Virus record (IMG/VR): IMGVR_UViG_3300033153_002191
Span: 1 to 34,574 of that record
Origin: a virus
Reading direction: 5' to 3' (one strand)
Length of the DNA stretch: 34,574 nt
Below the pieces are notes generated by a model, which saw only the letters and a list, made by a program, of their open reading frames with translations, was not told the origin of the DNA and did no database searches. The translations under genes were made by a program, and so were the position numbers. Shown here one piece after another: positions 1,806 through 34,542 of the stretch; the first letter of the stretch is position 1; each line of letters opens with the position of its first letter.

Positions 1806-1879
1806 TGGTTCCCTCCTCGTTATTAGTGGGAAGTGGGGCTGGTCTTACCCAAACGAGTCTCTTAATGAGATGCGTCTTA

Positions 1880-2081: not shown

Positions 2082-3314
2082 TCACCAGCCCATCATGGTC
2101 TTTACCTCGGCGTACGCTTTGCCCACCGTGGCGGCTTCTTTCATATTGGTAGCGTTGTAGTCGCTGAAGTGTTTGTAAAACCAGGTTGGCCCGTAGCTTT
2201 TGCCCTTGTTTTGCAAGTAGGCGAAAAACTCGCCCATGTTGCTTGGAACGGTTGCACCAGGGGCTTCAACCCACCCCCCCGGGGCGGCTTTGTCGCCCTC
2301 CCCAACATGGTATTCATAACGTGTGCCCGTGTCTTTAATTACCACAATGTCGCCGCCCTTTGCATCGGGTGGAAAAGGCGTTCTTAAATCGGGTAACACC
2401 GTGGTTGTGGGGCCCGTGGGCGGGGCGTCCTGGGTGGCCGCCTTACTTTCGGCGGTGGCGGGCCCTGTTGACGCTTTGGCAACCGCTGTTGTGGTTGTGG
2501 GATTATCCTCCGGCCACAGTTCGTCCTCGGCTTCATTGACGGTGGGCAAGTCTATAAACGGTGCCGTGTCGGCTTCGGGTAATTCCGCATCAGTGTACCC
2601 AGCCATACCCTCAACAAGTTCCATGGGTGGTAGCTGGCCCTTGCGGAACGCTTCCAGCATATTGTCCTGGCTTCTGATGTTGAGCACCCGCACCGTTTTC
2701 TTTTTGCCGTCGTCGGGGTTCGTTACCTCTTTGGGTTCCAGGGCAAGCACCAGCGGCACCATGCTCACACGCCCGTATATTTGTTTCACCAGGTCAAGGG
2801 CGTTGTTGACGTTCAAGATGCTGTTGATACTTCCCGTGTCAATCTGCCACACGCCAAAGCCGCTGACCTCTGGTAATAAGAATTGTAGGTTCATAACCTC
2901 ACCACAGCCACGCCGCCCGTACTCAAGGCACTCGCGGCCAGGGCAAACCACTTCACGGTTCACAACCTCTTTACTGTCACGGTTGGCCAGGGCACCAGTA
3001 GCGGTGTCAATCATCCGCATAGCGGTTTCGCCGTCACCCTTGCAAACCAAGCCACGGGAACGGCTGTATAAGCGGTAATACTGGCTGGCAAACTTCTCGG
3101 GGTCGTCTAGCGGAAATATAACCTTTAACTCGGTGGGCTTCTCCCCGTAGGCGGCCACCAGTTCGTCGTACTGTGGGTGTGTGGGGTCAAACACCAGGTA
3201 GTCGGTGGCTTTGGGGTATTCAGCCTTGCCCTCTTGCTTCACCCGCACACCCAGGTGTATCTTGCCAATCCGTGGCAATCTCCTTCTTTCTGTAAGCCCT
3301 TTGATAGGTGACAT
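2082..3314 (-). CDS. RDF (gp3)-like metal-binding protein
   Basis: 410 residues. The N-terminal half resembles the phage family annotated as recombination directionality factor-like or Gp3-like: RLPRIGKIHLGVRV near the start, then YLVFDP, VAAYGEKPTELKVIFPLDDP and YYRLYSRSRGLVCKGDGETA. A cysteine cluster (CPGRECLEYGRRGCGE, about residues 124-139) looks like a zinc site. After about residue 255 comes a linker rich in T, A and P, then a C-terminal domain ending KTMMGW that I do not recognise. In phiC31, Gp3 turns a serine integrase to excision, but no integrase is present here, so another DNA-processing role is possible. The start is preceded by GGAGGGAACC. Confidence 0.65.
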   Translation of the reverse strand: MSPIKGLTERRRLPRIGKIHLGVRVKQEGKAEYPKATDYLVFDPTHPQYDELVAAYGEKPTELKVIFPLDDPEKFASQYYRLYSRSRGLVCKGDGETAMRMIDTATGALANRDSKEVVNREVVCPGRECLEYGRRGCGEVMNLQFLLPEVSGFGVWQIDTGSINSILNVNNALDLVKQIYGRVSMVPLVLALEPKEVTNPDDGKKKTVRVLNIRSQDNMLEAFRKGQLPPMELVEGMAGYTDAELPEADTAPFIDLPTVNEAEDELWPEDNPTTTTAVAKASTGPATAESKAATQDAPPTGPTTTVLPDLRTPFPPDAKGGDIVVIKDTGTRYEYHVGEGDKAAPGGWVEAPGATVPSNMGEFFAYLQNKGKSYGPTWFYKHFSDYNATNMKEAATVGKAYAEVKTMMGW

Positions 3315-3334
3315 TATTCGGTTCCCTCCTCTAT

Positions 3335-3586
3335 TTAAGACTCGTTGATTTGGTCTGCCAGATAATCAAGTAAGTGGCGTCGGTTCCCTCCTGTATCTGT
3401 TGATGGGTCGGGTGCAGGTGGCGGTGATGGCGGCGGCACTACATCTATAATGTAGGCTGGGGCCAGGGCGGTACGGATTATTACCCGTTCCACCTCGGCC
3501 TCGGTGACGAGCCCGCCCTTGATTAGGCCGGACATCTTGGTGCTGTTAACCGTTTCTGTTATAACGGCATCGGCAAACGTAGGCAT
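3335..3586 (-). CDS. Hypothetical protein with proline-rich linker
   Basis: 83 residues, not recognised: a short helical N-terminus, a proline run (PPPSPPPAPDP, about 51-61) and a C-terminus RRHLLDYLADQI. Unlike its neighbours it has no clear ribosome site before the ATG. The reading frame stays open upstream through the 56-bp copy of methylase-gene DNA (3605-3660), and in the same frame as the methylase reads it. The original 5' end of this gene may therefore have been replaced by the duplication. GGAGGGAACC occurs inside it (3382-3391) with no good start after it. Confidence 0.5.
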   Translation of the reverse strand: MPTFADAVITETVNSTKMSGLIKGGLVTEAEVERVIIRTALAPAYIIDVVPPPSPPPAPDPSTDTGGNRRHLLDYLADQINES

Positions 3587-3604: not shown

Positions 3605-3660
3605 TCTGTCTCCATCCCAATACTTACCATGGAACCAACCATAGGCTATAAATTCATGCT
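3605..3660. repeat. 56-bp exact copy of methylase-gene segment
   Basis: Identical over 56 bases to 27928-27983, inside the ParB-linked methylase gene, and diverging immediately on both sides. Here it supplies the last codons of the 3646-3960 gene and the upstream region of the 3335-3586 gene. The methylase copy is the natural context, because it encodes a continuous conserved segment around YGWFHGKYWDGDR. This copy is therefore displaced. Confidence 0.9.
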
Positions 3661-3960
3661 GGGGTCGTAGCTGATGCTGATGCGGCCTAGCTTGAGGGCG
3701 TAAAGCCCATCGGGAATGTCTTGTAAGCCGCCAGCACGGTCAATAGCCGCCTTAACGTTGCCGTGGGCCTTGTCCATAGCCTCAAACGCTTCGTTTACGG
3801 CTAATGCTTCGGGTATCTTGTCTGTTATGGCCTCAAGTATGGCGTGGGCATTGAGGTAGACATCTTTGGCTTTGCCCCAGACTAGTAAAAGGTCACGCAC
3901 CTCAAGCGTGCTAGTGAGGTTTATGGCTGACTTAGTGTAATCTGTGCCGTATTTCGGCAT
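3646..3960 (-). CDS. Hypothetical protein, 3' end altered by duplication
   Basis: 104 residues, not recognised. It is mostly helical (for example AHAILEAITDKIPEAL, then GNVKAAIDRAGG), with C-terminal YALKLGRISISYDP. A strong GGGAGGGAAACC ribosome site precedes the ATG. The last residues (SMNL) and the TAG stop come from the 56-bp segment copied from the methylase gene, so the natural C-terminus is probably lost or shortened. It overlaps the upstream zinc protein gene by about 40 bases in another frame. Confidence 0.65.
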   Translation of the reverse strand: MPKYGTDYTKSAINLTSTLEVRDLLLVWGKAKDVYLNAHAILEAITDKIPEALAVNEAFEAMDKAHGNVKAAIDRAGGLQDIPDGLYALKLGRISISYDPSMNL

Positions 3961-4298
3961 GGTTTCCCTCCCTTTACTTTCTTTCTTTTCCTCCCCCTCC
4001 CCCCGCTTGATTTAGTGAACATATTCCTCGTTATAAGCCCACATTCTCCATATAGTCCGTATTTTGTGTAACTACTGAAACAAACGCTACAAACGTCTTG
4101 GTCTGTTTCCTCAATGTGGTGTGGTTTTTCAAGGTGTTTCCCGCCGAATAGGCCACCACAATAGTAGCATTTCGGGTGGTCTCGCATTAACTCGTCTATC
4201 CTTTTACGTGTCTCTTTGGCGGCTTTCAGGTGGGTGTTAATTTCCTCGCATATGAAGCAAGATGGGCCACCATCCTCTGTGCTTTTTAACTCGTTCAA
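3921..4298 (-). CDS. Zinc-binding CxxC protein
   Basis: 125 residues starting at a TTG (4296-4298), chosen because GGAGGGAACG lies just before it. Cysteine pairs CFIC, CYYC and CSVC, with KPHHIEE between, suggest one or two zinc knuckles of HNH or treble-clef type. The N-terminal half is helical (NTHLKAAKETRKRIDELMRD) and the C-terminus very basic (RGRKRKKVKGGK). A small nucleic-acid-binding protein is likely, but no catalytic set can be assigned. It belongs to the transcript that starts at the promoter near 4.7 kb. Confidence 0.65.
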   Translation of the reverse strand: MNELKSTEDGGPSCFICEEINTHLKAAKETRKRIDELMRDHPKCYYCGGLFGGKHLEKPHHIEETDQDVCSVCFSSYTKYGLYGECGLITRNMFTKSSGGRGRKRKKVKGGKPCRNTAQITLSQP

Positions 4299-4340
4299 TA
4301 CGTTCCCTCCAATACTTTATTCTGCAACGGTTCCACATGG

Positions 4341-4710: not shown

Positions 4711-4770
4711 TGTTATAACACACCCACGGCTAGGGTCCAACACCACGCTGGGCCCCAGGTAGTCGGGGCG

Positions 4771-5748
4771 TTATTTGGTTAACAGGTAGTTCCATGCACG
4801 TGCCTTGATGGCCGCACCCTTGCTGGTAATGGTATTCTTGAGCCTGGTGTCAGCACCGTTGGTGCCCTTATACTCCCGCCCAAAGTCAATGTATTCCACC
4901 ACGGCGTTGTAAGCGGCCCACCTGGTGTGTTTTATGGCCGCATCGTCAAGGCCCTTGCCCTCGCCGTCAAACAGGCGAGTAATGGACACCATACGTTTCT
5001 GGCTTCGGGCGGTGAAGTCGTCAAGGCTAACCACGTCCTCGGGCTTTACGGCACCCGTGGTGCCGAAAGCGGCGGCCAGCAATTTGGGCATTTCGGCCGC
5101 TGGTAATTGTAGGTTGGCCAGGCGGTTGGCCTTGACGGCAAAGTCGTCGTAAAAGTTAACGCTGATACCCAATATTTCCTGGGCTTGGGAAATGCGGTCG
5201 CCAATGCTTCCTGAATGCCTGGCGTAAAACGTGTCGGCTGTGAAACCTTGACGCATCATACCCAAAAGCACGTTGGTACACTTTAATCGTATGGGGGCAA
5301 ACAGTATTCTTAGGGCCGACTGACCGTCGTGGCCGTTGAACAGCCAAAGGTACTTCTCCACGGGGTCGCCTTGTATGCTGATAGTGCCGTTGCCCCCGTT
5401 CATCTTGGCCATTATCCATATCCGCTTGCCACCTTGCAAGGCCCCAGCCATATGGTACTTGGCCCTACCGTCGGCCACCACCTGGTCAAAGAAATTGAAT
5501 GCTTCCAAGTTCTGCACGGGCGTATAGCCATTGCCCAGCACGCTTAATACCTTGCCGTCGGTTACACGGGCCACCGCTTTCTTGCCCTCAATAACCTTGA
5601 ACCCTTTGCCCGAGAGATTGTTGGTGTAGATAGGCACCGTTTCCACTCCCCAATCCAATCCCGCCGCCGTTATGGCCTCTTTGGCTGTCAGGGCGTGGTC
5701 AACCTGGGTGCCCTGGCTTTGCCAACTTGCCTGGTCATACTTGAACAT
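4771..5748 (-). CDS. DUF932 phage/plasmid-like protein
   Basis: 325 residues, full length for the DUF932 (TIGR03299-like) family of phage and plasmid proteins of unknown function. Typical stretches are LGNGYTPVQNLEAFNFFDQV, KRIWIMAKM, KYLWLFNGHDGQSA and IRLKCTNVLL, followed by a long helical C-terminal half with TRWAAYNAVVEYID. No enzymatic residues are established for the family; members are often near replication or anti-restriction genes. The ATG follows GGAGGGAGCGGAGACT. A short, well-initiated ORF overlaps its 5' end in another frame. It lies in the early transcript from the 7.25-kb promoter, just upstream of the 4.7-kb promoter. Confidence 0.85.
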   Translation of the reverse strand: MFKYDQASWQSQGTQVDHALTAKEAITAAGLDWGVETVPIYTNNLSGKGFKVIEGKKAVARVTDGKVLSVLGNGYTPVQNLEAFNFFDQVVADGRAKYHMAGALQGGKRIWIMAKMNGGNGTISIQGDPVEKYLWLFNGHDGQSALRILFAPIRLKCTNVLLGMMRQGFTADTFYARHSGSIGDRISQAQEILGISVNFYDDFAVKANRLANLQLPAAEMPKLLAAAFGTTGAVKPEDVVSLDDFTARSQKRMVSITRLFDGEGKGLDDAAIKHTRWAAYNAVVEYIDFGREYKGTNGADTRLKNTITSKGAAIKARAWNYLLTK

Positions 5749-6545: not shown

Positions 6546-6689
6546 CTAATTTCTCCTAGTCCATAGTCGGATACTCCACCACGTAGCATCTGTTTCGTAG
6601 TGGGCCCAGGCTTCACCCTCTTTGCCCTTCAACATCGTCAGGGCTGTGAATATGAGGTCTTTACCTTTTAGCTCTTTGTCAATATCCAA
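6546..6689 (-). CDS. Small hypothetical protein (47 aa), TTG start
   Basis: Starts at TTG (6687-6689), chosen because GGGAGGGAACGA precedes it: LDIDKELKGKDLIFTALTML and onward to ...WWSIRLWTRRN. An internal ATG is a weaker alternative. It is compact with a tryptophan-rich end (HYETDATWWSIRLW) and is not recognised. It fits snugly between its neighbours, with the stop just before the translation module of the MazG-like gene, which supports it as a real gene. Confidence 0.6.
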   Translation of the reverse strand: MDIDKELKGKDLIFTALTMLKGKEGEAWAHYETDATWWSIRLWTRRN

Positions 6690-6701
6690 TCGTTCCCTCC
6701 C

Positions 6702-6920
6702 TTAATCTGCAACGCCCAGGTGTTTCCAGTAGTCCCTTATGTTTTCACCATCGGCATCTACGCTCACAGGATTAGTTACCTGGACTATCTTGCCCGTCAC
6801 CGTGCAATCGTGCAGTATCTTTTCCTCTATATCAGGCGAGGCCCGTTCCACCCATTCCCAAGTCTTGGCTTCCGTGTCTACCAGCATCCACTTGTTATTG
6901 AACTTTGCTACCAGTTTCAT
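6702..6920 (-). CDS. Hypothetical early protein (72 aa)
   Basis: MKLVAKFNNKWMLVDTEAKT begins a short beta-rich protein with no recognised domain, metal site or membrane segment. The ATG follows GGAGGGAACTGAA. It is the first gene with a normal start downstream of the perfect early promoter at 7235-7266, after a leader of about 300 bases, so it is probably among the first proteins made. Confidence 0.65.
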   Translation of the reverse strand: MKLVAKFNNKWMLVDTEAKTWEWVERASPDIEEKILHDCTVTGKIVQVTNPVSVDADGENIRDYWKHLGVAD

Positions 6921-7234
6921 TTCAGTTCCCTCCTATTAATATTTGGCTTGTTCGCCAACGTCAGCCCGCCAAGCTCATAACCTGGCGGGCTGGTAATTGA
7001 TTAACAAACTCTCATTCGCTTTGGTCAGCCTCCCCTCTGACTTGCCTCTTATAACCCCGTGGTGCCTCCCCTGGCTTCCTGGCCCCGTGTCCTGGGCTTA
7101 ACTTCCTGTGTGCCTGGGTGTTGCCCGTTTACCACAACGGTGGGCTTGGAGGAGTGGGGGCTTCTTATGCCTTGCCCCCGTGGCTGGTTCGCTTATTCCT
7201 ATTTGGTTCCCTCCTGCTCCCTCACTTCCCTCTA
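6921..7234 (-). other. Long leader of the early transcript
   Basis: About 310 bases between the promoter and the first clear gene. It contains a GGAGGGAACC ribosome-type site (7205-7214) followed by an open frame of about 33 codons that would have to start at ATA and ends in TAA. It also contains a hairpin AGCCCGCCA/TGGCGGGCT (about 6963-6991) with no U-tract. No ATG/GTG/TTG ORF of credible size follows that ribosome site. It could be a decayed small gene, an unusual start or an untranslated regulatory leader. Confidence 0.5.
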
Positions 7235-19445: not shown

Positions 19446-19661
19446 TCAATACCCGTTTGCATATTCAGCGAACGGTTGCATAAACTCTAGCCAAAAGACG
19501 GGGCCCACCCAGGCCACGCCGTTCCACATATAGTGATAGAAGGTATCTGTTTCGTAAAACATACTACCTATCGTTATCGGCAAAGTTGCGGCGGGTGTCG
19601 GCTTGACGTCTGTGCTCAAGCCCTCCCACACGATTGCTGGATTACACATTTGTACTGCCAT
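19446..19661 (-). CDS. Short paralogue of the 'WNGVAWV' protein
   Basis: 71 residues: MAVQMCNPAIVWEGLSTDVK, then ITIGSMFYETDTFYHYMWNG and VAWVGPVFWLEFMQ. It aligns with the N-terminal module of the next gene (MAVQM, WEGLS, YETDT, WNGVAWV) but lacks the second domain. Either a trimmed duplicate or a deliberate small variant. The start follows a GGAGAGAAAT site and an 11-bp-stem hairpin. Confidence 0.6.
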   Translation of the reverse strand: MAVQMCNPAIVWEGLSTDVKPTPAATLPITIGSMFYETDTFYHYMWNGVAWVGPVFWLEFMQPFAEYANGY

Positions 19662-19675
19662 ATTTCTCTCCGTTC

Positions 19676-19739
19676 GGTGGGTGGGCGTGGTAGCCCACCC
19701 ACCTTAAAAAGGAGGTGACGTCTTGCCCAAAAGGGCAAG
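19676..19739 (-). other. Two hairpins and an anti-SD-like stretch
   Basis: GGTGGGTGGGC (19676-19686) pairs with GCCCACCCACC (19693-19703), and CTTGCCC (19722-19728) with GGGCAAG (19733-19739). Between them the mRNA reads TCACCTCCTTTTT, very like the 16S rRNA 3' end, so it could pair with a ribosome site. There is no U-tract directly after either stem, so intrinsic termination is unlikely. RNA processing or translation control is possible. Confidence 0.5.
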
Positions 19740-19746
19740 CCGCTAC

Positions 19747-20217
19747 CTAAGCCGCCGAAACATCAGCCCCATCTTCCAGGGGTATGTAGAACAGTGTCCA
19801 GCGTATTGAACCCGTAGAGCTTGCGGATAACCGTAAGTCCAGGGTTCCAGGTCGTAGCACTACGCCGTCGGTAGTCATGCCAGGTATGCCGCCCGTGGCG
19901 GCGGGTAACATTGCGGCCGCTGGGACACCGCTAATGCCAACATGGTCGTCTTGGGCATACGTGCCAGCCGCAACCACGGCACAAATGGTTTCCAGCGTGC
20001 CCACAGTAGGGTTTTCTTCCAGGCTCATATTGCCAACGGCACCAAGCACCGTGGTTATGTAGCCTATTATGAGGGTCATTTTAACCAGCCCCGTATTGAT
20101 AGTGAATATCGGGGCCGACGTTGTTTGGGGCAAAGTAGCAGTAGCACGTTCTACTTTGTAACCTAGCTTCTGCATACGAAGCCCCAAGCCGTGCATATAG
20201 TTGGGTGGCATTGTCAT
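19747..20217 (-). CDS. Hypothetical structural protein, paralogue A
   Basis: 156 residues, hydrophobic and beta-rich: ATATLPQTTSAPIFTINTGL, VLGAVGNMSLEENPTVGTLE, CAVVAAGTYAQDDHVGISGV, AMLPAATGGIPGMTTDGVVL, SSTGSIRWTLFYIPLEDGAD. It aligns along nearly its whole length with the next upstream gene's product. Position between the capsid gene and the decoration genes fits a capsid-vertex or decoration protein, but no known family was recognised. Ribosome site GGGAGGTG. Confidence 0.6.
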   Translation of the reverse strand: MTMPPNYMHGLGLRMQKLGYKVERATATLPQTTSAPIFTINTGLVKMTLIIGYITTVLGAVGNMSLEENPTVGTLETICAVVAAGTYAQDDHVGISGVPAAAMLPAATGGIPGMTTDGVVLRPGTLDLRLSASSTGSIRWTLFYIPLEDGADVSAA

Positions 20218-23944: not shown

Positions 23945-25849
23945 TTAATCCACTATCGGAATAAATGTGCACCGACAGTTTGGGTGCACGGGTATCATCC
24001 CGTGTGTTTCAGTTATGGGATATTCACCAGCCAGCACTAGACACTCCTCGTCAGCGTCGGCGGCTGGGTAGAATTCTACTTTTTCAATGCCCTCTACCTC
24101 GTAACCTTGTAAAGCCCCCTCATTACTGGCGGCTATAACCTCGGTGCGGGCAACCATCTTGGCACGCCGTTCGTAACCGTTCTCATAATACTTGCCTATG
24201 CGTTTGGTTAACTGCGGGATGCTGTCGCCCTCCTCAAAGCCCTGGGCCAGCACCTTTCTTAACTCCTCTTTGGTTGTGCCGTTCACCATTTGGGCCAGCT
24301 CCAGCGAACGGGTAGAAATCCAATTCAAGGCCGCCTCGTTCAGCACGCCCTCGTCAAACCCTATCTGCTTTGCCCTGTGGGCTGGGTGAACTACCCCGCC
24401 ACCAGTGGCTAGTACAAACGACTGACCGTATACCCTGGTTATCTCGGGCTTAAAACCATCCTCCCAGGCGGTAGCGGCGGCATCAACGTCTATGGTGTCT
24501 TGGGTAATTGGGAACTGTTTCATTACAGCTTCCATCTGTTCAAACCACAGCTTCTTAAACAGCTTCTTAAACGCTTCCTCGTCCTCGCCAGCTTGGGTGG
24601 CAAAAGCACGCCATAGGGCTTCTTTTTGTTCGCCGCTTAATTCCTTGATAACCAGTGTTGCGTGCCTGTGGGCTTTAACGGCCATTGACACGGGTGCTGG
24701 CGGTGGGGCGAATGTTTCCCCCGCATTGGGTTCGGCATCATAGCCTAGTTGTAGCCTGGCTTCCTGGCGGGTTATAATACCCGCTGGGTAAAGTTCTTTT
24801 ACCTCATTAACGGTAGCCTCCCTGTTTTCAGGCACCACGTTGTCAAAGTCAAGCATAAAACCGTCGTCATAAAGTGGCACTAGCTGTTCGTTCAGTGCTT
24901 CCTTAATCCTGGTCAGGGCTGGCTTTACCACGTACTTACTAAACACCAGTTCGTCGGCCTCAACCCTGGCCCTACTGCCTGGCCCCTCAAGGCCAAGCAT
25001 GCTGGTCGGTATGCGGTAGGCCCCTATGATAATGTCACGGCTGATTTTGCGTAGCCGCCAAAAGTCCATATCACGGTTGGTCATTGCTATGGTGTTGGCC
25101 TTTGCCCCACCCCACAGGAACCCCGTTTTGCGGGCGTTACGCCATCCCTGGTGTATTTCGTTCCACTCGGTGCGGATTTTGTCCCGTTCGTTCTTTTCGG
25201 GTATTTCGGGGTACTCAATAACCAACCCAGGGGTGGCATCATTGTAGAACAAGCGGTTTTGATACCCAGCGGCATGCCTCTCGCTGTCAAGGTCAACACT
25301 AATGCTTTGTGCTGTACCTCTGCCACGAAAGATATTAGCTGGGTCGGGGTTCATTATATGGATAACTTCGGGTACCTCAAGCCGTAACCTACCCACGCCA
25401 GGGCGGTACTCGTAGTGGCTTATGTAGGTTTCAAGGCTGGGTATGATATACATAAATTGCGGAGGGGCCAGCCACATTTCAGCGGGTACGCCCAAACGGT
25501 TAAAGTTCAGCACAATAAATGCCTCTCCCACCAATCCTATGTATAGCTGTATTAGCTGTATAAACTGGTATTTGGTTTGGAACGGGTTGACGTAAGACAA
25601 CATATCAGTTAGCGGGTGGTTTTCCACCAAGTCGCCACGGACATTGCCGTCTTTCTCGTAAAGCCGCCACTGAACGTCGGCCACGCTTTCGCTTATTAGG
25701 TTGTTGGCCGCAAATAACCAGCCCACTTCGCCGTAGATTTTAAGGTATTGCTGGTAACTCCACCCAGGCGGTACTTCCATTGTGCTTATTGCCGTACCAC
25801 CAAGACGGTAGTTAATACCCTTAAACCAGTTCTTTATACTAAATGCCAT
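23945..25849 (-). CDS. Portal protein fused to MuF-like minor head protein
   Basis: 634 residues. Residues about 1-385 are an HK97-family portal (NNLISESVADVQWRLYEK, NHPLTDMLSYVNPFQTKYQF, GLVGEAFIVLN, VPEVIHIMNPDPANIFRGRG, IPTSMLGLEGPGSRARVEAD). After a proline-alanine linker (FAPPPAPVSMAVKAHRHA), residues about 400-634 form a MuF/SPP1 gp7-like domain (ARTEVIAASNEGALQGYEVE, CLVLAGEYPITE, HGMIPVHPNCRCTFIPIV). Portal and MuF are usually separate genes; here they make one polypeptide. MuF domains sit inside the head and can be ejected with DNA. Confidence 0.85.
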   Translation of the reverse strand: MAFSIKNWFKGINYRLGGTAISTMEVPPGWSYQQYLKIYGEVGWLFAANNLISESVADVQWRLYEKDGNVRGDLVENHPLTDMLSYVNPFQTKYQFIQLIQLYIGLVGEAFIVLNFNRLGVPAEMWLAPPQFMYIIPSLETYISHYEYRPGVGRLRLEVPEVIHIMNPDPANIFRGRGTAQSISVDLDSERHAAGYQNRLFYNDATPGLVIEYPEIPEKNERDKIRTEWNEIHQGWRNARKTGFLWGGAKANTIAMTNRDMDFWRLRKISRDIIIGAYRIPTSMLGLEGPGSRARVEADELVFSKYVVKPALTRIKEALNEQLVPLYDDGFMLDFDNVVPENREATVNEVKELYPAGIITRQEARLQLGYDAEPNAGETFAPPPAPVSMAVKAHRHATLVIKELSGEQKEALWRAFATQAGEDEEAFKKLFKKLWFEQMEAVMKQFPITQDTIDVDAAATAWEDGFKPEITRVYGQSFVLATGGGVVHPAHRAKQIGFDEGVLNEAALNWISTRSLELAQMVNGTTKEELRKVLAQGFEEGDSIPQLTKRIGKYYENGYERRAKMVARTEVIAASNEGALQGYEVEGIEKVEFYPAADADEECLVLAGEYPITETHGMIPVHPNCRCTFIPIVD

Positions 25850-28907: not shown

Positions 28908-28930
28908 AAAAAAACCCGCACAAAGCGGGG
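28908..28930 (-). terminator. Intrinsic terminator in late leader
   Basis: On the minus strand CCCGC-TTTGT-GCGGG is followed by seven T. It lies between the promoter at 29025-29053 and the first late gene (parB-like), so late transcription must read through it, as at lambda tR'. Confidence 0.88.
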
Positions 28931-29018
28931 TGAAAGTCTGGGGCCACTCGTTTGTAACGAGTGGCCCCCTATCCATTTGGAGGGAACCATCTGGATGCTG
29001 GGCACAGAGCCGCCCATT
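28908..29018 (-). ncRNA. Candidate short leader RNA (6S-like), about 110 nt
   Basis: Bounded by the promoter at 29025-29053 and the terminator at 28908-28930. Contains a 13-bp-stem hairpin with a 3-nt loop (arms around 28940-28952 and 28956-28968) and, nearer the 5' end, an unpaired stretch GGUUCCCUCC (complement of 28979-28988), the exact reverse complement of the GGAGGGAACC ribosome site used before several phage genes. By position it resembles lambda 6S RNA. A regulatory role by base pairing is inference. Confidence 0.6.
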
Positions 29019-29024
29019 GCAAGG

Positions 29025-29053
29025 ATGGTATCACAGGCATAAAGTGTTGTCAA
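29025..29053 (-). promoter_or_regulatory. Candidate late promoter
   Basis: Minus strand TTGACA (29048-29053), 17-bp spacer, TACCAT (29025-29030). The ATGGTATC half-site of the 1880-1896 palindrome covers the -10. It faces a short leader, a strong terminator and then the ParB/methylase/terminase/structural genes. Confidence 0.7.
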
Positions 29054-29109: not shown

Positions 29110-29550
29110 TCACGCACGCTTAACTTTTTGGTAATGTTCCTTGATGCCGTGCCGCCTGTTGAACTCGGCATAGGTAAGCCGCCGCCGCCGCTGGCCCGAA
29201 CAATACAGCACCACACGCTTAATGCGTCGGTCAATGTTTTCAACATTGGTTTTCATTAGGTCGGCCAAGGTTTGGGCATCCCAGTCGTCAGCCAGGCATT
29301 TCACCGTCAGCTTACCATCTTGGCTGTTGACGTTGCACCGTTCCAGGCGGTATTTGATTTCTGCCGACAAGCAAACGGCTGTCACAAAGTAGGCCGTATG
29401 GGACACACTCGCCCCAGGGCCACCAACGTAGCCCGTTTCCCTGTTGTCACGTGGCCAGCGGCCCTCCTCAAGTTCCCGCAAGTGCTCAATGGCCCAGGTC
29501 ACGTGCTCGGGCCACATTCTTATATCGCTGGGCTTGCAATAATCAAGCAT
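29110..29550 (-). CDS. HTH-like basic protein, candidate late antiterminator/activator
   Basis: 146 residues from the ATG at 29548-29550 (GGAGG six bases upstream; a GTG six bases earlier is weaker). N-terminal WPEHVTWAIEHLRELEEGRW; a central SHTAYFVTAVCLSAEIKYRL; then DDWDAQTLADLMKTNVENID and RRIKRVVLYCSG, a probable HTH with a basic recognition helix; a C-terminus rich in arginine (QRRRRLTYAEFNRRHGIKEH). It ends just before the late promoter, the position of lambda Q, ArpU or RinA-type late regulators. No direct family match by eye, so the role is positional inference. Confidence 0.5.
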   Translation of the reverse strand: MLDYCKPSDIRMWPEHVTWAIEHLRELEEGRWPRDNRETGYVGGPGASVSHTAYFVTAVCLSAEIKYRLERCNVNSQDGKLTVKCLADDWDAQTLADLMKTNVENIDRRIKRVVLYCSGQRRRRLTYAEFNRRHGIKEHYQKVKRA

Positions 29551-29561
29551 TGGCACCCTCC

Positions 29562-30822: not shown

Positions 30823-31053
30823 TCAGCCAGCGGCACAATCCTCAAGGTCACACCACCACTCACCCTCTGTGTCGGGGCCTGCCAATAGCGTATCGGTGCG
30901 GATGCGGAACGGTTGCGGGTAGATGCGTTCGCCCGCCTTGTTCTTATAAAGTACCTCAAACGTGGTAAGGGCTTGGCTTGGGTGTATGCGGTACTCGGCA
31001 ATGCCCACACACCGTTTGCCACCGTTCCATATTGGTGCGTTAATATATATCAC
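30823..31053 (-). CDS. Hypothetical protein (76 aa), GTG start
   Basis: Starts at GTG (31051-31053) with GGAGGGAACC immediately before it. MIYINAPIWNGGKRCVGIAE, then IHPSQALTTFEVLYKNKAGE, FRIRTDTLLAGPDTEGEWWC, ending DLEDCAAG. Beta-rich, with three cysteines. An overlapping ORF of similar size in another frame (30801-31022) lacks a ribosome site and is rejected. Function unknown. Confidence 0.6.
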   Translation of the reverse strand: MIYINAPIWNGGKRCVGIAEYRIHPSQALTTFEVLYKNKAGERIYPQPFRIRTDTLLAGPDTEGEWWCDLEDCAAG

Positions 31054-31062
31054 GGTTCCCTC

Positions 31063-31158
31063 CTACTGCCAGCCTGTCCGTATTATCCAGCCTATTCCAA
31101 AGCCAGTTAACAAGGCCAGGCCGACTACTAACCAAAATACTATCGGCTCAATGCTCAT
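31063..31158 (-). CDS. Tiny membrane protein (31 aa)
   Basis: MSIEPIVFWLVVGLALLTGF then GIGWIIRTGWQ: one long hydrophobic helix with small C-terminal tail. AGGGGGTGCCAAG precedes the ATG. The stop lies by the ribosome site of the next gene. Could be a small envelope-active peptide like its neighbours; no family. Confidence 0.5.
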   Translation of the reverse strand: MSIEPIVFWLVVGLALLTGFGIGWIIRTGWQ

Positions 31159-31478
31159 CTTGGCACCCCCTGTTTGAGGGTGGTAGCATACTTCTCGTTG
31201 CCAGGCAACACCAAACCGCTGGCCGTTCGCTGTGGCTCAAACTTGATACTCGTAGTAGCCCAAATGTGAAACTCCAGCATACCGGCGTGCTTGAGGCACA
31301 TCGGGATGCCGCCAAGGGTTGACAGGTGTTGGGGGCTTCCCGATGTTACACCAGGGGCGGGTGCTTTAACCATTATCATATTAGTACACGGTGGGAACAC
31401 ACATTTGAACCGTACCATATCGTCCTCGGGCTTTGGGCCCAGGGATTTCCTCGCGGCTTTAGCTGTTTTCTCACTCAC
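31155..31478 (-). CDS. Hypothetical zinc-site protein (107 aa)
   Basis: Starts MSEKTAKAARKSLGPKPEDD; residues about 25-65 hold CVFPPC, CLKH and GIPMCLKHAG, a candidate zinc-binding set. The rest is short strands (LEFHIWATTSIKFEPQRTAS). It is chained by overlaps to the two neighbours. Not recognised. Confidence 0.5.
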   Translation of the reverse strand: MSEKTAKAARKSLGPKPEDDMVRFKCVFPPCTNMIMVKAPAPGVTSGSPQHLSTLGGIPMCLKHAGMLEFHIWATTSIKFEPQRTASGLVLPGNEKYATTLKQGVPR

Positions 31479-33433: not shown

Positions 33434-34059
33434 TTGAATTCTATTACCCAAACAAAGCAATTAGTGTCCCATCCGAACCCAAGCTTGGCATTGATGCTGT
33501 CCCAGAGTGTGTGAAAGTCAAGTATCAACTTGCTATTGGGCTTATCCGTCACGATATTGTACTGAGGGTTGAAGAATTTTTGGTGGATACCTTCATAAAT
33601 ACAATCCCAACTGTCTATCTCCTGCAACCTCTCCACTCTGACCCCTGTAATCTCAAGGGTTATCCGTGAAGCCCAGCGGGGCATGAAGATTGAGGGCTTC
33701 CAGTGTCCTTGCATTATCTTCAACTCTGTACTATCTGCACTAGCTTTATACAAGGGGTTAGATTCACCTTTACCTTTACCTTTCTCAGTAGAAGCAAGAC
33801 ACACCATATCATCCCAAGTCTCCCTCACCCAGAGCCTATCCCCTACCTGACCATAGGGGCAACCAGTATAATTGCCATATGGATACTCGTCAAGGTTCAA
33901 TAACTCATCTCTCCAGTTAATAGCACCATTCAGAGAATACATTGTTAGCTCATTATCTGGCTGTGGCTTCATCACCCTTCTGGTCATGGTCTTTCTACCC
34001 TCAAGGATAGCCTTGACCATATCTGTTGACATTAAAATCGGTCGTTCGTGTATTGCCAT
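33430..34059 (-). CDS. ASCH-like (PUA fold) phage protein
   Basis: 209 residues. ERPILMSTDMVKAILEGRKT, MTRRVMKPQPD, CPYGQVGDRLWVRETWDD, WKPSIFMPRWASRITLEITG, VRVERLQEIDSWDCIYEG, LWDSINAKLGFGWDTNCFVW. This is the typical layout of phage proteins with an ASCH-like PUA-fold domain, thought to bind RNA or modified nucleic acid. Some databases call it a 'morphogenetic protein', without support. GGGAGGTTACAA precedes the ATG. Confidence 0.75.
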   Translation of the reverse strand: MAIHERPILMSTDMVKAILEGRKTMTRRVMKPQPDNELTMYSLNGAINWRDELLNLDEYPYGNYTGCPYGQVGDRLWVRETWDDMVCLASTEKGKGKGESNPLYKASADSTELKIMQGHWKPSIFMPRWASRITLEITGVRVERLQEIDSWDCIYEGIHQKFFNPQYNIVTDKPNSKLILDFHTLWDSINAKLGFGWDTNCFVWVIEFK

Positions 34060-34241
34060 TTGTAACCTCCCGCAGTCATTCTTTTACCGTTGCAAACAGA
34101 TGAGATATTTCCATTGGATTGATACCATTTGAAGTCTGAGAGCCACTCAAAATCAGCATCATCCACTTTCGCAATTTGCCCTCTTAACAATCTAATATTC
34201 TTCATATAGCAGGATGTTCTGTCAATCGGTGTTTCTTTCAT
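34032..34241 (-). CDS. Truncated homing-endonuclease-like N-terminus (69 aa)
   Basis: Starts at ATG 34239-34241 (GGGAGGGAACCAAG upstream). YMKNIRLLRGQIAKVDDADF then EWLSDFKWYQSNGNISSV is the common N-terminal domain of HNH/AP2-type homing endonucleases ('LTQGKFAxVDDEDFxxLSxxKW'). The rest of such proteins, with the HNH and AP2 parts, is missing. It could be a fragment left after loss, or a small free-standing domain. Its end overlaps the next gene. Confidence 0.6.
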   Translation of the reverse strand: MKETPIDRTSCYMKNIRLLRGQIAKVDDADFEWLSDFKWYQSNGNISSVCNGKRMTAGGYKWQYTNDRF

Positions 34242-34542
34242 CTTGGTTCCCTCCCTTAAAATACCCCTCTTGGGTGCTGGGTGCCAGCGTCCGGCCCGCA
34301 CCAATCCCGCACGTACAGGTATAGCTCGTCGTCACCCACCTGGAACGTAGCGGCCTGTGCCAGCCAGTTTGGTATCGTATCAATTCCACTTCTTTCCAAT
34401 GCCGCCGCACCCGTTTCTTACCGTTCCGCCACCCTTTGCTCTTACTCACAAAGGAACGGTAGCCAATATTTTGATACACGGGGTCGTTGGCTAAACATTC
34501 CTCAAGGGCATCGGGCGGTAGCTGTTCCAAAAACCTGTTCAT
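34222..34542 (-). CDS. Hypothetical protein, probably frameshifted
   Basis: 106-codon ORF, start overlapping the helicase-loader stop (ATGA, in the terminal repeat). The first 50 or so residues (MNRFLEQLPPDALEECLAND, NIGYRSFVSKSKGW) look natural, but the last part reads as unlikely sequence and runs past the next gene's ribosome site. A frame one base off (34256-34399 and a few codons earlier) gives natural protein (IPNWLAQAATFQVGDDELYL) and a stop just before that ribosome site. A single-base change near 34400-34425 would join the two. Confidence 0.6.
   Translation of the reverse strand: MNRFLEQLPPDALEECLANDPVYQNIGYRSFVSKSKGWRNGKKRVRRHWKEVELIRYQTGWHRPLRSRWVTTSYTCTCGIGAGRTLAPSTQEGYFKGGNQDERNTD
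34256..34399 (-). other. Alternative C-terminal frame of the preceding gene
   Basis: Reads GIDTIPNWLAQAATFQVGDD then ELYLYVRDWCGPDAGTQHPR and TAA (34256-34258), immediately followed by the next gene's GGGAGGGAACC. It has no ribosome site of its own; the first possible start is TTG at 34397-34399. More consistent with the true C-terminus of the 34222-34542 gene than the frame that ORF ends in. Confidence 0.55.

Follow-up and report, generated by a model that had tools for sequence, protein, structure and literature searches.

In phage lambda, the strong promoter pR' and the terminator tR' are located just upstream of the late operon, where they give rise to a short transcript (6S RNA) and constitute a read-through point; we know of no antisense role for this RNA. 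In Firmicutes, small RNAs such as RsaE/RoxS, IsrR and LhrC use an exposed C-rich loop to pair with the Shine-Dalgarno (SD) sequences of several mRNAs. To our knowledge, the antisense RNAs of phages mostly control one gene encoded opposite or nearby. P22 sar and lambda OOP and aQ are encoded in cis, opposite or beside a single target. These three RNAs down-regulate phage genes (PMC12197685), and the c4 RNA of P1 and P7 exposes segments whose complement lies in the ribosome-binding region of a phage mRNA, the translation of which is thereby blocked (PMC12197685). Control of many phage mRNAs by one regulator, which occludes their translation start regions, has been described for T4 RegA (PMC3014915).

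The locus analyzed here is part of a 34.6-kb phage record, which was examined over its whole length (referred to below as the window). All of its recognised genes are on the minus strand. The late genes (terminase, portal, capsid, tail) extend from ∼28.9 kb down to 7.9 kb, while the early or accessory genes occupy two regions, one between 34.5 and 29.1 kb and the other between 7.0 kb and the left end; their products include a replication initiator, a DnaC-like loader and a Gp3-like protein. As in lambda, a promoter and a terminator are found immediately upstream of the late operon, and they delimit a predicted leader RNA placed upstream of the ParB, methyltransferase and terminase genes (Table 1). 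A preliminary description of this DNA had claimed that the leader carries the exact complement of the phage's own ribosome site. This was confirmed: the plus strand reads GGAGGGAACC at positions 28979-28988, so that the minus-strand RNA reads GGUUCCCUCC. We consider it likely, with moderate confidence, that the terminated leader RNA of the late operon doubles as a trans-acting antisense repressor of early translation with multiple targets.

Table 1. Features of the leader RNA and of the tag sites in the window
Feature	Position	Strand	Remarks
Tag GGAGGGAACC	34245-34254	-	before ORF 34032-34241 (weak NUMOD/HNH match); duplex -22.9 kcal/mol
Tag GGAGGGAACC	31054-31063	-	before GTG of ORF 30823-31053; duplex -24.4 kcal/mol
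Sigma-70-type promoter TTGACA-17-TACCAT, TG before -10	29025-29053	-	10/12 consensus; consensus match only
Predicted noncoding leader RNA, ∼110 nt	28908-29018	-	promoter to terminator; 5' end inferred from promoter
First hairpin of leader RNA (GGGC...GCCC)	28997-29020	-	predicted fold; hairpin with other sequence in L053 and L100
Anti-SD core GGUUCCCUCC	28979-28988	-	loop and upper stem of weak hairpin (28971-28996)
13-bp hairpin GGGGCCACUCG...	28940-28968	-	predicted fold; unrelated hairpins at same place in L053 and L100
Intrinsic terminator CCCGCTTTGTGCGGG TTTTTTT	28908-28929	-	terminator-like hairpin here in all five leaders seen
Tag copy without start codon	7205-7214	-	noncoding; ∼20 nt inside early transcript after perfect early promoter
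Tag GGAGGGAACT	6924-6933	-	before gene 6702-6920, first gene of early operon; L053 orthologue: GGAGGGAAGC
Tag GGAGGGAACG	6691-6700	-	before TTG of ORF 6546-6689
Tag GGAGGGAACG	4301-4310	-	before TTG of ORF 3921-4298
Tag GGAGGGAAACC	3962-3971	-	before gene 3646-3960; L053 orthologue: GGAGGGAACG
Tag copy within ORF 3335-3586	3382-3391	-	62 nt upstream of the 3320 site
Tag GGAGGGAACC	3320-3329	-	before gene 2082-3314 (Pfam Gp3-like, PF18897)
Tag GGAGGGAACC	1807-1816	-	before 31-aa ORF 1710-1805 overlapping start of replication-initiator gene 1049-1717

In the predicted fold of the leader, the UUCCCU stretch of the weak core-bearing hairpin is unpaired. Burial of the core in a stable structure had been named beforehand as an argument against an antisense function; in the window RNA, the core is structured only in part, with an opening cost of ∼5.8 kcal/mol, and it is almost free in the fold of the corresponding leader of the related phage L100. 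The start region of ParB is placed ∼25 nt past the terminator, and the terminase and portal genes follow. Since there is little room for another promoter between the terminator and the ParB start, transcription probably has to read through in order to reach the late operon. No Q-like antiterminator was recognised among the proteins scanned, many of which had no family match, and at the gathering score no Rfam family, c4 (RF01695) included, matched the leaders of the window phage, L053, L100 or L054. Two other roles for the conserved segment were considered and ruled out: its plus-strand copy as the ribosome-binding site of a small ORF, because neither L053 nor L100 has an ATG suitably placed downstream of it, and pairing of the core in cis with the SD of the next gene, because the match is weak and the terminator intervenes.

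The six exact sense copies of GGAGGGAACC listed previously are all present on the minus (coding) strand. They had been described as lying mostly before start codons, which holds for four of them, directly upstream of the codon, and fails for the noncoding copy at 7205 and for the copy at 3382, inside an ORF. Near-copies were found at further early genes, with GGAGGGAAC at three and GGAGGGAAACC at a fourth, which adds four tagged early genes (3962, 4301, 6691 and 6924) to those originally reported. The sense copies are confined to early or accessory regions, and the tag never precedes a late gene. The 9-mer GGAGGGAAC is the commonest on the coding strand of the window, with nine occurrences vs one on the other strand. 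The tags are not recent copies, as the sequences that flank them are mutually unrelated. This bears on the view that the tag is a functionless common SD extension, inherited with mobile early gene cassettes, to which the leader corresponds by chance. Phage early genes are mosaic and SD sequences are similar anyway; nevertheless, such an origin is very improbable, given the unrelated flanks and a composition-based probability of only ∼3e-4 per phage, obtained in a calculation proposed at the outset, for the 10-mer in an RNA of this kind, which yet recurs in relatives with randomised flanks. One of the tagged SDs belongs to a 31-aa ORF overlapping the start of the replication-initiator gene, an arrangement resembling that of plasmids in which Rep is controlled through the translation of a small leader ORF. 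By analogy, repression at this ORF could damp replication.

When one mismatch was allowed, 12 sites were found vs 2.7 expected, a number reached in none of 100 shuffles. Start regions with an exact 9-nt match to the RNA number six in the window phage and eight in the related phage L053; the former count was equalled by 0 of 1370 other real genome windows and by 3 of 1000 shuffled RNAs, the latter by 0 of 1249 genome windows and 0 of 1000 shuffles. Exact matches were used as the measure because raw pairing energy over all windows is non-discriminating: it fails to single out the core, since equally low values, many of them from GC-rich windows, occur in 6 of 1440 windows of this phage and in 36 of the 1314 windows of L053. 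Early and late GGAGG sites differ in how often GGAGGGAA precedes them, both in the window (8/20 vs 0/12; Fisher P = 0.014) and in L053 (6/19 vs 0/16; P = 0.022).

The prediction of pairing energies, also suggested in the preliminary description, showed that the core pairs best with early start regions. The ten best-pairing start regions (ORFs of at least 40 aa) are all early in both the window phage and L053, and the RNA binds them more strongly than does the 16S rRNA tail; those of the window form duplexes of -17 to -24 kcal/mol with the core vs -10 to -17 kcal/mol with the 16S rRNA tail. Cofolding gave binding energies of -11.6 to -17.8 kcal/mol for tagged starts of the window vs -2.4 to -5.9 kcal/mol for six late starts, while late controls of L053 go down to -12.6 kcal/mol, matching the weakest tagged start. 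The 3' end of 16S rRNA is GGAUCACCUCCUUU; the GAACC extension of the tag adds nothing to pairing with it, but completes the match to the small RNA. Because it is not needed for 16S rRNA pairing, this extension may act as an address that separates the RNA-controlled early genes from other genes.

A motif shared by many start regions is also what a translational repressor protein would read, and T4 RegA acts on about 30 mRNAs (PMC3014915). The tag might accordingly be a site for a phage protein, either a RegA-like repressor or a DNA-binding protein, with the leader copy serving as a decoy or a DNA operator. We regard this as improbable: most tags are sense-oriented and at SD distance, whereas the leader copy is antisense within a structured RNA, a copy that a protein reader would not need, and a DNA operator would not account for the asymmetry in strand and position. 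No member of the RegA family was detected among the proteins scanned, which represent a subset of the ORFs.

In the antisense mechanism that we favor, a short noncoding RNA would be made from the sigma-70-type promoter directly upstream of the late operon and would end at the intrinsic terminator unless transcription reads through. This RNA would expose GGUUCCCUCC between two hairpins, and the core would pair over 9-12 nt with the extended SD GGAGGGAAC(C), which marks a subset of the early genes. Such pairing would keep ribosomes off the tagged genes and possibly also promote mRNA decay; the RNA thus probably switches these genes off. That the pairing capacity seen in the sequences is a selected function is well supported. 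The leader RNA, as the short product of the late promoter, would accumulate as the template multiplies and late transcription intensifies, and early translation would fall; a role in early shut-off, through timing or dosage, is therefore plausible. As regards the antisense timing device originally put forward, an RNA aimed at a shared early ribosome site has gained good support, while its late-switch role is something that we infer.

The startless tag near the 5' end of the early transcript has a counterpart, GGAGGGAACA, at the same place in L053 (position 24304 of that record). Its conservation, ∼20 nt from the start of the early transcript, points to pairing at this 5' end as well, which would serve as a further control point or a sponge. 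We tentatively put forward, as a possibility, an RNA-addressed phage regulon, in which the late-promoter product would repress those early genes whose extended SD tag (GGAGGGAACC) contains extra letters read by the RNA. Late promoter activity and genome copy number would then be coupled to early shut-off without a protein repressor, and the tag at the early 5' end would be a sponge setting the threshold. The conserved startless tag in two phages also fits the reverse relation, in which early mRNAs, and above all this site, are sponges or partners controlling the leader RNA, its stability or its termination. Most tags, however, are at ribosome sites of translated genes, for which a sponge has no need, and the core is separate from the terminator stem, so that the reverse relation seems decidedly improbable.

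A search with the major capsid protein identified ten relatives of the window phage, with capsid proteins 69-85% identical. ParB and terminase as single queries yielded only distant loci or none, and a search for the portal protein in bacterial genomes gave no match. With a terminase profile, relatives in bacterial genomes were found only at 36-39% identity, mostly in Chloroflexota, and just three matches were obtained among 400 Chloroflexota genomes. The terminase of L053 is 71% identical to that of the window phage, and the terminase and portal proteins of L100 are 58-59% identical to their counterparts.

A sigma-70-type promoter and a terminator occupy the leader position in five related phages (the window phage, L053, L100, L054 and L065), three of which have the flanking hairpins. 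The L053 leader has a TTGACA...TATACT promoter, then GACAGGTTCCCTCCTTT between two hairpins that both differ from those of the window phage, and finally the terminator; the L064 leader is identical to it. The same architecture was found in L100, where it is bordered on one side by the homologue of gene 29110-29556 and on the other by the gene preceding the terminase. The core is identical in the leaders of the window phage, L053 and L100, although L100 was found by a pattern scan using the core itself, so that only its location and architecture, and not its core sequence, are independent. The longest string that any two of these leaders have in common is the core, extended by no more than three letters; the 15 letters on either side of it agree at about the chance level (3-6/15 and 2-4/15).

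The tags are conserved as well. L053 has the exact 10-mer in its leader plus six tagged sites, and GGAGGGAAC occurs in its record six times vs once on the other strand, in early regions. The core and tagged early genes are both visible in only two genomes, those of the window phage and L053. Exact GGAGGGAACC was kept before the Gp3-like gene in the window phage, L053 and the L063 record, with spacers to the start codon that differ. Tags have also been gained or lost between orthologous genes, as with 31155-31478, for which only the L053 orthologue bears a tag. No compensatory changes between core and tags were found; both sides stay the same.

The leaders of L054 and L065 have the promoter and the terminator, and no CCCTCC core. 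A leader kept in relatives without the complementarity had been expected beforehand to speak against the antisense idea. Formally, these two phages present this situation; in L054 the tags have been lost too, GGAGGGAAC being absent from its record, and the short L065 contig does not extend over most of the early genes. The early module of L054 differs from that of the window phage: the Gp3-like gene is replaced by a gene that shares only its C-terminal end and that we take, from its sequence, to be Erf-like. The absence of both core and tag from L054 is a co-loss rather than a refutation. Still, the two leaders make the attenuator the shared part of the locus, and any CCUCC can pair with any SD, which is in line with an RNA that is only a terminated late-operon leader of the lambda type, its anti-SD core being a generic ribosome-site mimic or a coincidence with no early target set. 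Such a restricted role is unlikely: no longer sequence than the core has been kept in the three leaders, the GGUUC half of the core corresponds to the tag rather than to a general SD, and tag and core co-occur while late genes lack the tag.

Further matches to the leader pattern, in L080, L093, L097, L098 and others, did not have the complete architecture or fell within coding DNA. In L092 (record 3300025012_000349), a promoter is followed by GGUCAUGGUUCCCUCCUUUC and a terminator, with the core at position 4826 on the coding strand. This segment pairs with the SD plus AUG of several of the phage's own genes at -26 to -31 kcal/mol and surpasses the other windows tested in that record. L092, an unrelated phage, was not accepted as a further case and is only a lead, since it lacks the GGAGGGAAC tag set.

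Other RNA elements and repeats were noted in these phages. An intergenic element in the late operon (window positions 19674-19746, minus strand) consists of a hairpin, an exposed core, CGUCACCUCCUU, resembling the 3' end of 16S rRNA, and another hairpin. It is kept in nine phages (the window phage, L045, L046, L048, L049, L050, L051, L053 and L054), 8 of its 17 predicted pairs have changed on both sides, and it has no Rfam match. Situated before a 71-aa gene (19446-19661), this element may sequester the SD of that gene in cis or be a generic anti-SD. The early operon has a noncoding 5' leader of ∼300 nt (window 6935-7230, minus strand; L053 record 24280-24640; L046 record 19740-20130), which follows a perfect TTGACA-17-TATAAT promoter and a strong terminator and contains the conserved blocks CCCACCGTTGT, GGCACYACGGGGT and AATTACC; no credible Rfam match was obtained for it. 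Finally, tandem 15-base repeats (CCAGAGGGGGAAGAA) were observed within the late region of the L046 record (∼4729-4790).

The predicted leader RNA has sequence features of the trans-acting SD-blocking sRNA class, namely a promoter and a terminator, both recognised by consensus, and conserved, above-chance complementarity to several SDs. It differs from RsaE/RoxS, IsrR and LhrC, which are host-encoded and serve metabolic or stress regulons, in that its putative targets are the phage's own early genes, recognised through a longer, dedicated address. In the literature searched, which left most subscription papers out of reach, we found no published phage RNA aimed at a shared early SD. Unlike P22 sar and lambda OOP and aQ, the RNA of the window phage would act in trans on many separate genes. 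It resembles c4 in that its 10-nt core is complementary to ribosome sites of the phage, with six exact sites, four of them at start codons; c4, however, controls one gene (ant) for immunity, while here one segment matches the tag of ∼8 early genes. If the proposed function is correct, the locus shows how an attenuator leader can acquire a second function, and other phages can be searched for the same signature: a 9- or 10-mer that is frequent on the coding strand at start sites and whose complement is present in a terminated leader. The T4 RegA protein recognises AU-rich sequences around the AUG, whereas the regulator proposed here is an RNA reading an SD extension; a small RNA that governs an entire set of early genes by means of an extended ribosome site common to them would be an RNA counterpart of T4 RegA.
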